Shown piece after piece: positions 15,870-18,426 of a DNA stretch of 64,000 nucleotides. Numbering within the stretch: position 1 is the first letter of the stretch; the number at the start of each line of letters is the position of its first letter. Location of the stretch: the NCBI GenBank assembly GCA_024742835.1, contig JANSXS010000006.1:1-64000 (forward strand), written 5' to 3'. The stretch is from Paracoccaceae bacterium. Its GTDB lineage: Bacteria; Pseudomonadota; Alphaproteobacteria; Rhodobacterales; Rhodobacteraceae. The translations under genes were made by a program, and so were the position numbers. Below the pieces are notes generated by a model. That model was given only the letters and a program-made list of their open reading frames with translations, was not told the origin of the DNA and did no database searches.

Positions 15870-16163
15870 ATGTCGAACCCAATGAAAACCGCCGTGATCG
15901 CAACCGCCTTCACGGCCGCACTTGCCGCGCATACCACCACTGCCGCCCATGCCGCCGAGAAAGAGAAATGCTTTGGCGTTTCGCTTGCTGGTGAGAACGA
16001 TTGCGCCGCCGGTGCTGGCACCACCTGTGCCGGGTCGTCGACCGTCGATTATCAGGGCAACGCCTGGACGCTGGTCGACAAGGGCACCTGCACCGAGATG
16101 GAGCTTCCCGGCGACCGTACCGGCAGCCTTGAGGCGCTTGATCGCGACCTGCCGCAAGCCTGA
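15870..16163 (+). CDS. bufA1: BufA1-type bufferin precursor (DUF2282), copper-buffering RiPP
   Basis: A 97-residue precursor with a Sec-type signal peptide (residues 1-28, cleavage expected after AAHA) and a short core carrying four Cys at 34, 45, 53 and 74, the spacing typical of the DUF2282/BufA1 family. Bufferins are exported peptides whose Cys residues are modified by a DUF692/MNIO enzyme and which bind copper in the periplasm. The ATG at 15870 follows GGAG. bufB and bufC follow immediately, and hairpins lie on both sides of the gene, suggesting higher expression of the precursor than of its enzymes. Family assignment is firm; copper binding here is inferred from the family. Confidence 0.9.
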   Translation: MSNPMKTAVIATAFTAALAAHTTTAAHAAEKEKCFGVSLAGENDCAAGAGTTCAGSSTVDYQGNAWTLVDKGTCTEMELPGDRTGSLEALDRDLPQA

Positions 16164-16169
16164 AGACAT

Positions 16170-16200
16170 GTCGGGGACGCGGTATCCGCCGCGCCCCGAC
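16170..16200 (+). promoter_or_regulatory. Intercistronic hairpin between bufA1 and bufB
   Basis: A 12-bp stem with one bulged A (16170-16182 with 16189-16200) and a 6-base loop starts 6 bp after the bufA1 stop. No T-run follows, so it probably protects the 3' end of bufA1 mRNA or limits read-through rather than ending transcription. Confidence 0.6.
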
Positions 16201-16232
16201 CCCTGCCGCCAACCACTTTGCAAAGGCATCTC

Positions 16233-17099
16233 ATGCGTGACACCCACCTGCATAAACACCTGCCCTCCGCACCCGGCATCGGCTACAAGCCGCAACATTT
16301 CGCGGATATCAGCCATGATCCGAACCCGGTGCAATGGCTTGAGATCCACGCGGAAAACTACATGGGCGCAGGGGGGCGGCCACTGGCGCAATTGCGGCAT
16401 CTGGCCGAAATCATGCCGATTTCGGTGCATGGTGTGGGGCTAAGCATAGGGGGCGACGGCCCGCTTGACCGCGATCATCTTGACCGGCTGGCGCGGCTAT
16501 GCCGCTGGCTGAACCCGGCCAGCTTTTCCGAGCATCTGGCATGGTCCACCCATGAGGGTGCGTTTCTCAACGATCTGCTGCCCCTGCCCTATACCAACGC
16601 CACGCTGATGCGGGTCGCAGACCATATCGACCAGGTGCAAGAGACGCTGGCACGCCCGATGCTGCTGGAAAACCCGTCAAGCTATCTGGGTTTTGCGGAA
16701 AGCACATGGTCAGAGCCGGATTTCCTGCGCGAACTTGCCCGCCGCACGGGCTGCGGGATGTTGCTGGACGTGAACAACGTCTTTGTCTCGGCGGTCAATC
16801 TGGACATGGACGCGCGCGCCTATATCGACGCCTTTCCGCTGGATCAGGTGGGGGAAATCCATCTGGGCGGCCATGACGAGGACACCGATGATTTCGGTGC
16901 GCCGCTTTTGATCGACAGCCACGGGCGCGAGGTGGCCGATCCGGTCTGGGCGCTTCTGGATCATACGCTGCACCGGACCGGGCCGCGCCCCGTGTTGATC
17001 GAATGGGACACCGACGTGCCGGATTGGCCCATTTTGCGTGCCGAGGCGCAACGCGCCCGCACCGCGCTTGACCGGCTCCCGGCGGCGGTCCCGGCATGA
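16233..17099 (+). CDS. bufB: BufB, DUF692 / MNIO-type multinuclear iron peptide-modifying enzyme
   Basis: A 288-residue TIM-barrel protein of the DUF692 (MNIO) family. Metal-ligand segments are visible: LEIHAENYMG, SVHGVGLSIGG, SEHLAWS, LLENPSSYL, LLDVNNVFVS, GEIHLGGHDE and LIEWDTDVPDW. These enzymes use iron clusters and oxygen to convert Cys in RiPP precursors; in bufferins they form thiooxazoles. The ATG at 16233 is preferred over an in-frame TTG at 16218 because AAAGG lies at proper distance. The stop overlaps the bufC start by 4 bp (ATGA). Confidence 0.93.
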   Translation: MRDTHLHKHLPSAPGIGYKPQHFADISHDPNPVQWLEIHAENYMGAGGRPLAQLRHLAEIMPISVHGVGLSIGGDGPLDRDHLDRLARLCRWLNPASFSEHLAWSTHEGAFLNDLLPLPYTNATLMRVADHIDQVQETLARPMLLENPSSYLGFAESTWSEPDFLRELARRTGCGMLLDVNNVFVSAVNLDMDARAYIDAFPLDQVGEIHLGGHDEDTDDFGAPLLIDSHGREVADPVWALLDHTLHRTGPRPVLIEWDTDVPDWPILRAEAQRARTALDRLPAAVPA

Positions 17100-17854
17100 G
17101 CGCGCGGCAAGACAGCTTTCGCGCCGCGCTGTTCAACACCGGAACCGCCCCGCCCGACGGCCTGACGGATGGGCATGGGCAACCGGCCGGACGGCGCTTT
17201 GCGGTGTACCGCAACACTGTTGCCAGCAGCCTGATCACGGCGCTGAAAACCTCTTTTCCCGCGACGGCCAAGACCGTGGGCACCGGCGCGTTTCGTCAGA
17301 TCGCCGGCACCTACATGCGCCAACACCCGCCGACATCACCGATGATGATGTATTACGGCGACAGCTTTCCCGCGTTTCTACGCGAACTGCCCGCCGTGGC
17401 GCATCTGCGCTACCTGCCCGATCTGGCGATGCTGGAACAGGCACGGCGCGAGGCTTATCACGCGCAGGATGCACCGCCCGCCGATCTTGCAGCGCTTGCC
17501 AGCCTGTCACCCGACCGGCTGGCGACCGCCCGGCCAGGTCTGGCACCGGCGCTGCGCCTGGTCCGCTCGGATTGGCCGGTGCATGGAATCTGGGCCTTCA
17601 ACATGACCCAGGCCGCGCCCAAACCGCCCCATTGCGCGCAGAACGTGCTGATCACGCGGCCCGCTTTCGATCCTGAAATGACCGTCATCGACGACGCCAT
17701 GGTGGCTTTTGTCCAGTCGCTCGCCATGGGCCGCACCCTGCAAGACGCAACGGATCACGCCACCGCGCACGCGCCGTCATTCGACCTTGGCACCGCGCTT
17801 GGCCCCTTGCTGGCGGGTCGAGCCATTTGCCATATCAACGCCGGAGATCATTGA
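17096..17854 (+). CDS. bufC: BufC, DUF2063 partner protein of the bufferin maturation enzyme
   Basis: A 252-residue protein with the N-terminal DUF2063 domain (FAVYRNTVASSLITALKTSF, about residues 36-55), annotated historically as DNA-binding but in MNIO systems acting as the partner that presents the precursor peptide to the enzyme. LRYLPDLAMLEQARREAYHA is the second conserved block. It overlaps bufB by 4 bp and the DoxX gene by 1 bp, so the three proteins are translationally coupled. Confidence 0.9.
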   Translation: MSARQDSFRAALFNTGTAPPDGLTDGHGQPAGRRFAVYRNTVASSLITALKTSFPATAKTVGTGAFRQIAGTYMRQHPPTSPMMMYYGDSFPAFLRELPAVAHLRYLPDLAMLEQARREAYHAQDAPPADLAALASLSPDRLATARPGLAPALRLVRSDWPVHGIWAFNMTQAAPKPPHCAQNVLITRPAFDPEMTVIDDAMVAFVQSLAMGRTLQDATDHATAHAPSFDLGTALGPLLAGRAICHINAGDH

Positions 17855-18426
17855 TGCAGATACTTTTTTCGCTTTATCACCTTCTTGCCGCCACGCTGGA
17901 ACGCGCGGACAGGTTCCTGCCAGTGCTCGCGCGCCTGCTTTTCGCGGCGACGCTGCTGTTTTATTTCTGGTCCTCTGGCCTGACCAAGCTTGGCGACGGG
18001 GTATTCGGATTCATGCACCCTTCCGCCGGGGCCTATGCGCAGATCTTTCCAAGGGCGATGGAGGCCGTGACCTATGACACCGGCCAGCTTGGGCTGTTTC
18101 ACTGGGCCGTTGTCACGTTAGGGACATGGGCCGAATTCCTGCTGCCGTTACTGATCGTGACCGGCCTTGCCTGTCGTGTTGCGGCGCTTGGCATGATCGG
18201 GTTTATCGTGGTGCAATCGCTGACCGATCTGTTCGGGCATGGCGGGCTGGCGCATGGCGCGCTTGGCGCATGGTTCGACAAGGCACCCGATGCGCTGATC
18301 CTTGATCAACGAGCATTCTGGGTGTTTGTTCTGCTGGTTCTGGCGATCAAGGGGGCCGGGCCGCTATCGGTTGACAGGTGGCTGTCGTCGCGCGGGGCCG
18401 GGCGCTATGTCAGCAGCGCCGCCTGA
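17854..18426 (+). CDS. DoxX family membrane protein of the bufferin operon
   Basis: A 190-residue protein with four predicted transmembrane segments (about residues 22-42, 80-105, 108-130 and 155-172) and the DoxX pattern LARLLFAATLLFYFWSSGLTK. ATG at 17854 overlaps the bufC stop (TGATG). DoxX proteins are frequent in bufferin and other MNIO operons; their role there is unsettled. The 3' end overlaps the convergent ArsC-like gene by 22 bp. Confidence 0.85.
   Translation: MQILFSLYHLLAATLERADRFLPVLARLLFAATLLFYFWSSGLTKLGDGVFGFMHPSAGAYAQIFPRAMEAVTYDTGQLGLFHWAVVTLGTWAEFLLPLLIVTGLACRVAALGMIGFIVVQSLTDLFGHGGLAHGALGAWFDKAPDALILDQRAFWVFVLLVLAIKGAGPLSVDRWLSSRGAGRYVSSAA

Follow-up and report, generated by a model that had tools for sequence, protein, structure and literature searches.

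Among the peptides made by MNIO enzymes, bufferins are reported to form the largest families (PMC12452194). In Buf1, the two central cysteines are described as modified and the first and last as joined in a disulphide (PMC12452194); those Buf1 products that have been characterised are described as copper-sequestering (PMC12668002, PMC12452194), and a loss of 8 Da is given for a two-repeat substrate (PMC12668002). Caulobacter CC3254–3257 encodes a DUF2282 precursor, an MNIO, a DUF2063 partner and a DoxX protein in that order (PMC3511200, PMC12452194), and the Caulobacter paralogues are reported to be controlled by sigma-F and its negative regulator NrsF, with the site GTAACC-N16-CGAA (PMC3511200). 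The same four kinds of protein are encoded by gigPABT of Cupriavidus metallidurans and by the Legionella GIG operon, which are described as induced by copper and gold (PMC10304878, PMC5413113). An MNIO and a DUF2063/RRE partner are also found in the captophorin operons hvfABCX (oxazolin) and fonABC (fontiphorin), whose products are described as thiooxazole copper peptides, hvf including a DoxX-like HvfX (PMC12668002, PMC13419390).

The window analysed here, a stretch of 64,000 nucleotides from the genome of a Paracoccaceae bacterium (GCA_024742835.1; 3.03 Mb, 99.89% complete, 76 contigs), carries four genes in the Caulobacter order, all on the forward strand. They are bufA1 (15870–16163), encoding a 97-aa precursor, probably of Sec type (PF10048 DUF2282, 84.8 bits against a cut-off of 22.4); bufB (16233–17099), encoding a 288-aa MNIO bufferin maturase (NF050167 MNIO_BufB equivalog, 372 bits, cut-off 310); bufC (17096–17854), encoding a 252-aa DUF2063 (PME-type 1) partner (PF09836, 81 bits, cut-off 27.2); and doxX (17854–18426), encoding a 190-aa DoxX-family, HvfX/GigT-like membrane protein that passes PF07681 narrowly (26.6 bits, cut-off 23.6). 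By reading, an AGGAG ribosome site lies directly 5′ of the bufA1 ATG. A gap of 69 bp separates bufA from bufB, and the later genes overlap, bufB and bufC in ATGA (17096–17099) and bufC and doxX in TGATG (17852–17856). A preliminary description of this DNA had proposed a compact one-strand bufA1-bufB-bufC-doxX operon with these two couplings and with precursor cysteines at positions 34, 45, 53 and 74; ORF coordinates and family models bear out the layout to the base, and the couplings and cysteines lie where it had placed them. Its bufferin reading is supported by family membership and by a gene set and order that fit the published Buf1 operons (PMC12452194). Chance was rejected given the Pfam E-values across the operon, from 9e-6 (DoxX) to 2e-104 (BufB), and the recurrence of the same gene set in relatives. 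No second DUF2282 gene beyond bufA1 and no second MNIO gene beyond bufB was detected in the genome. Judged by its genes, this is an ordinary Buf1 bufferin operon with the published core gene set of the gig operons. The operon kind is known, and what looks new is its promoter element, together with the lack of sigma-F/NrsF; this regulatory anatomy, absent from the preliminary description, is the less ordinary part of the locus.

The BufA1 precursor has, by eye, a likely signal peptide at about residues 1–28, with a basic N-terminus, a hydrophobic stretch and an AHA↓AE junction. Exactly four cysteines occur in 92 of the 95 family BufA proteins that were recognised by a pattern, which missed 11 of the 106 loci. 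From the Buf1 arrangement in PMC12452194 and the 8 Da loss in PMC12668002, 5-thiooxazoles are expected at Cys45 and Cys53 and a disulphide between Cys34 and Cys74; the chemistry on this core, which the preliminary description had left open, is therefore less open, since PMC12452194 assigns separate roles to central and outer cysteines. Two tandem bufA genes precede a single bufBC-doxX set in two relatives (L047 in genome G007 and L073 in G100). BufB aligns to PDB 3BWW (4e-43), reported to be 72.4% identical to HvfB, in which N175, D242 and H244 are required for activity (PMC13419390). By our mapping through 3BWW, whose numbering may be shifted by one relative to HvfB, these site-3 residues correspond to BufB N182, D228 and H230, and each of the three is conserved in at least 97% of 105 family BufB proteins. 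BufC, with 252 aa, is near the 250–260 aa given for PME-type 1 partners (PMC12452194). Its RRE part gave a sub-threshold HvfC match over 32–211 (54.5 against 142 bits), and a PDB sequence search with BufC returned no match to the NGO1945 structure. The hvf and fon operons differ from this one: their precursors consist of EGKCG repeats, and the window's BufC and DoxX score under the cut-offs of the HvfC and HvfX models.

Membership of DoxX in the HvfX family was rejected (NF050144, 25.6 bits against a cut-off of 80). The protein was found by profile in 74 of the 75 loci bearing the promoter element described below, and, among the matches listed, its close relatives belong to Roseobacter-type genera, Roseovarius being one. 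Aligned with 83 relatives, picked from the best 120 of 3844 found, DoxX shows K45, E94, R108, D125, H129, D142, D151, R153 and D174 as invariant, and no invariant cysteine. Fold searches with DoxX gave nothing informative. For GigT, one suggestion is that it oxidises periplasmic Cu(I) and passes the electrons to the quinol pool (PMC10304878). The preliminary description regarded the role of DoxX as open, in agreement with PMC12668002 and PMC13419390 as far as these accounts go; here it would act as an accessory membrane protein. A bufferin by descent could nonetheless have a target other than copper, be it another metal, oxidative stress or sulphur stress. A response to chromium and cadmium, mediated by sigma-F, is reported for the Caulobacter paralogues (PMC3511200), and MerC-Buf1 fusions, together with DoxX, hint at other stresses (PMC12452194); we also counted against the copper-bufferin explanation the report that deleting gig alone left copper resistance unaffected in C. 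metallidurans (PMC10304878). Nevertheless, the copper sequestration reported for characterised Buf1 products (PMC12668002, PMC12452194) and the Legionella GIG promoter, described as responsive to copper and gold (PMC5413113), make a purpose other than copper quite improbable.

Conservation was followed in a family set of 149 genomes, one per genus. DUF2282 is present in 106 of them, and the loci compared were 105 fetched from relatives plus the window for its own genome. Upstream of the operon and outside it lies thrS (13631–15607, forward strand; named by reading the sequence), which adjoins the buf operon in 79 of the 106 loci. The gene 3′ of doxX, in the window and in many family loci, is ArsC/Spx-like; here it is convergent (18405–18731, reverse strand) and shares 22 bp with the 3′ end of doxX. 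An initial scan that was not very sensitive showed thrS, bufA, bufB, bufC, doxX and a convergent ArsC-like gene, all in this order, in at least 55 of the 106 loci. Cupriavidus gig differs in its neighbours, lying opposite genes for an ECF sigma factor and a putative anti-sigma factor (rpoQ, rsqA) (PMC10304878). So constant a position next to thrS suggests that the operon belongs to the core genome and is not a mobile trait. Behind thrS is a stem-loop with a T run resembling an intrinsic terminator (15648–15671, forward strand); terminator-like sites in 15550–18900 are no more numerous than in shuffles (3 versus 3.6), so this call rests on position and gene context. Further downstream, the window encodes a 94-aa protein (19320–19604, reverse strand) with a signal-like N-terminus and a Cys/His-rich mature part that might bind metal, for which no Pfam or NCBIfam match was found.

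Between thrS and bufA lies a 33-bp tandem dyad control element (15724–15756, forward strand) with the pattern TnACG-N4-CGTGA-NN-nACG-N4-CGTGAnT, refined to TnACG-N4-CGTGA-NN-CACG-N4-[C/T]GTGAnTgg, that is, two TCACG-N4-CGTGA-like dyads whose centres lie 15 bp from each other. Counts of spaced pairs of five-letter words in the 73 upstream regions linked to thrS put CGTGA-N10-CGTGA first, with exact copies in 25; in 200 shuffled sets, the mean was 0.04 and the highest value 1. The element is held by 65 of these 73 regions, which served as the training set, and is missing from 8. When the motif was learned on one half only, and the seeds excluded words from the tail of thrS, 33, 33, 34 and 35 of 38 held-out upstream regions scored above 12 bits, against 1, 0, 0 and 0 of 380 control stretches from the same loci. 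The window copy reaches 25.8 bits, while no other non-overlapping place in the 64 kb exceeds 1.7; it has two mismatches to the consensus pattern and is among the weaker copies (24.7 bits against a best of 45.0 in the scan of the 73 regions). Its start is 146 bp before the bufA start codon, the median over 70 loci being 113 bp. We found no published account of the tandem dyad, or of the bufA-bufB hairpin discussed below, in the literature searched.

Control of the window operon by sigma-F and NrsF, as in Caulobacter (PMC3511200), was considered and rejected: NrsF, the sigma-F anti-sigma factor, had no match in the 76 contigs of this 99.89% complete genome, and a relaxed form of the sigma-F site had none between thrS and bufA, where the tandem dyad lies instead. 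Across the family, NrsF was over its cut-off in 21 of the 149 genomes. Counting as element-bearing any genome in which a family locus has a site above 18 bits, NrsF was over its cut-off in none of the 75 element-bearing genomes versus 16 of the 31 other buf genomes (Fisher 8e-11, with kinship ignored). Fifteen buf genomes have neither the element nor an over-cut-off NrsF. In G129, which bears the element, NrsF gave a match that stays below the cut-off and contains two stops. The relaxed sigma-F pattern occurred in 1 of 70 element-bearing upstream regions (L063). At locus L128 (genome G010), nrsF and its sigma gene are located between thrS and bufA on the opposite strand, and the tandem element is replaced by a sigma-F-like promoter plus one dyad; by its arrangement, this is a switch of control at one locus.

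Dyads also accompany the NrsF-type promoters. With at most one mismatch, a dyad was found in 9 of the 16 NrsF-type upstream regions (shuffles: mean 0.13, maximum 2), and in 10 of the 14 promoter-like sites a dyad with at most two mismatches lies exactly 5 or 6 bp before GTAA, compared with 0.9% of shuffles having one anywhere within 15 bp. Among 60 loci from the class, hand-picked mainly from the top of a longer list and 59 of them from other families, 10 contained a dyad with at most one mismatch (shuffles: mean 0.8, maximum 3), but of 24 promoter-like sites only 3 had the dyad adjoining the promoter. The dyad thus looks older than either promoter type, a reading more weakly supported outside the family. 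In this family, the tandem dyad seems to take the place of the stress sigma factor that normally does the switching.

A consensus promoter scan found no promoter. In 71 loci aligned on the element, a TAnnnT column pattern occurs at positions 54–59 (T 54%, A 63%, T 68%), with a weak TGG near −35; the proposed −35 is poor. The matching candidate −10 in the window is TAGCGT (15777–15782, forward strand), one base off the relatives' spacing. If TAnnnT is the −10, the second dyad of the tandem type would be centred near −45; in the sigma-F type, the usual spacing of ECF promoters would place it near −46. About −45 is the usual seat of activators that touch the polymerase.

A repressor site or an RNA structure, rather than an activator site, might also be palindromic and overlap the expected −35, as the element does. 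The element, however, lies upstream of the −10-like sequence, and in the NrsF-type operons the dyad is directly upstream of the −35; an RNA stem would be broken in most genomes by base 2 of the first half-site, which is G, A or C (0.48/0.24/0.27), and Rfam gave no match at the element. We hold such a site or structure to be unlikely. Similar doubt attaches to binding by a copper two-component regulator of the CopR/CusR type. Its reported site, TGACA-N4-TGTCA with repeated TGACA-like half-sites (PMC12428095, PMC11195947), shares with the dyad a 5-4-5 inverted repeat, the first half-site of the element being TnAC[G/A]. With at most 18 candidates scored per genome, however, strong matches to the CopR family model (E up to 1e-60) were present in only 25 of the 75 element-bearing genomes, in 13 of the 31 other buf genomes and in 6 of the 43 genomes lacking DUF2282. 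No match exceeded the cut-off of the model in any genome scored, and the window's genome had none at E up to 1e-60 among the 18 of 29 candidates scored. CopR itself does not seem to fit as the binder, and a more distant OmpR-family regulator remains a candidate for the putative activator.

The element is highly specific to bufA. Allowing two mismatches, it was matched in 67 of the 149 family genomes, compared with 2 hits for a reversed control pattern; by reading coordinates, 10 of the listed places lie away from a DUF2282 gene, one of them in the window's genome (contig C62). A match with two mismatches, in a genome (G112) with no DUF2282 match, is intergenic, before an L,D-transpeptidase-like gene (L149, G112:C7:58314-58344), and may be due to chance. 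An exact scan of 84,980 species genomes returned 103 matching stretches, and 97 of these are followed within 500 bp by the start of a same-strand bufA ORF. Two more (L250, L264) include thrS and end shortly after the element, and four (L253, L313, L316, L333) are inside ORFs of 189–820 aa in unrelated bacteria. The names on the 103 stretches are mostly of genera that we take to belong to the Rhodobacteraceae or the Roseobacter group. In one record titled Nocardioides marinus (L251), perhaps mislabelled or contaminated, the element precedes bufA. Across the class, 1 of 289 genomes had a match with at most one mismatch, and the tandem form is therefore confined essentially to the window's family; the patterns used in these scans would miss weaker sites elsewhere in the genomes.

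The gap between bufA and bufB contains a stem-loop without a T run (16170–16200, forward strand), and the 91-nt stretch that holds it folds better than all 200 of its shuffles (z −3.06). Ninety such gaps were folded, 5 of 95 loci having no recognisable bufB start, and 87 have a best local hairpin at or below −15 kcal/mol (median −24). The controls reached this value in 66 of 95 stretches inside bufA (median −16), 18 of 95 inside bufB (median −11) and 43 of 95 simple shuffles (median −14). Good folding in the bufA-coding control as well means that the hairpin is enriched without being unique. In the relatives shown the sequences differ, yet the hairpin is kept. Most likely, it protects or partly terminates the bufA message and would so yield more precursor than enzyme. 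Locus L069 (genome G063) has a weak copy of the element before bufA and, at about 4132–4306, a T-tailed hairpin after bufA followed by a strong copy (36.1 bits) before bufB, as if bufA and bufB were separately promoted. We give almost no credence to an inactive or remnant operon retained only through its linkage to thrS, in view of four intact frames and the retention of the key residues, the four cysteines, the element and the hairpin.

From the protein families, key residues, neighbourhood and the conservation of element and hairpin, we consider it very probable that the locus is a Buf1 bufferin operon with a copper-binding product and its own activator-driven promoter. BufB, as a mixed-valent diiron MNIO, would act with BufC in the cytoplasm to oxidise Cys45 and Cys53 of BufA1 to the 5-thiooxazoles, after which the peptide would be exported by Sec, close the Cys34–Cys74 disulphide and bind copper in the periplasm. 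Transcription would start from the operon's own promoter behind the thrS terminator, with a putative activator, not sigma-F/NrsF, on the dyads at 15724–15756, about −45 and −60 from the presumed start. For the control of bufferins outside sigma-F, no explanation was found in the literature examined. We lean, with some reserve, towards the proposal that the bufferin operon of Rhodobacteraceae has left sigma-F/NrsF for a dedicated, near-single-target activator that binds two tandem TCACG-N4-CGTGA dyads, and that the same regulator acts on the sigma-F bufferin promoters of relatives, as an ancient, undescribed layer of copper-peptide control. As the element occurs almost only at bufA, it could serve as a bait for the regulator and as a ready reporter, and it may offer a route to the signal that switches bufferins on in marine Roseobacter-type bacteria.
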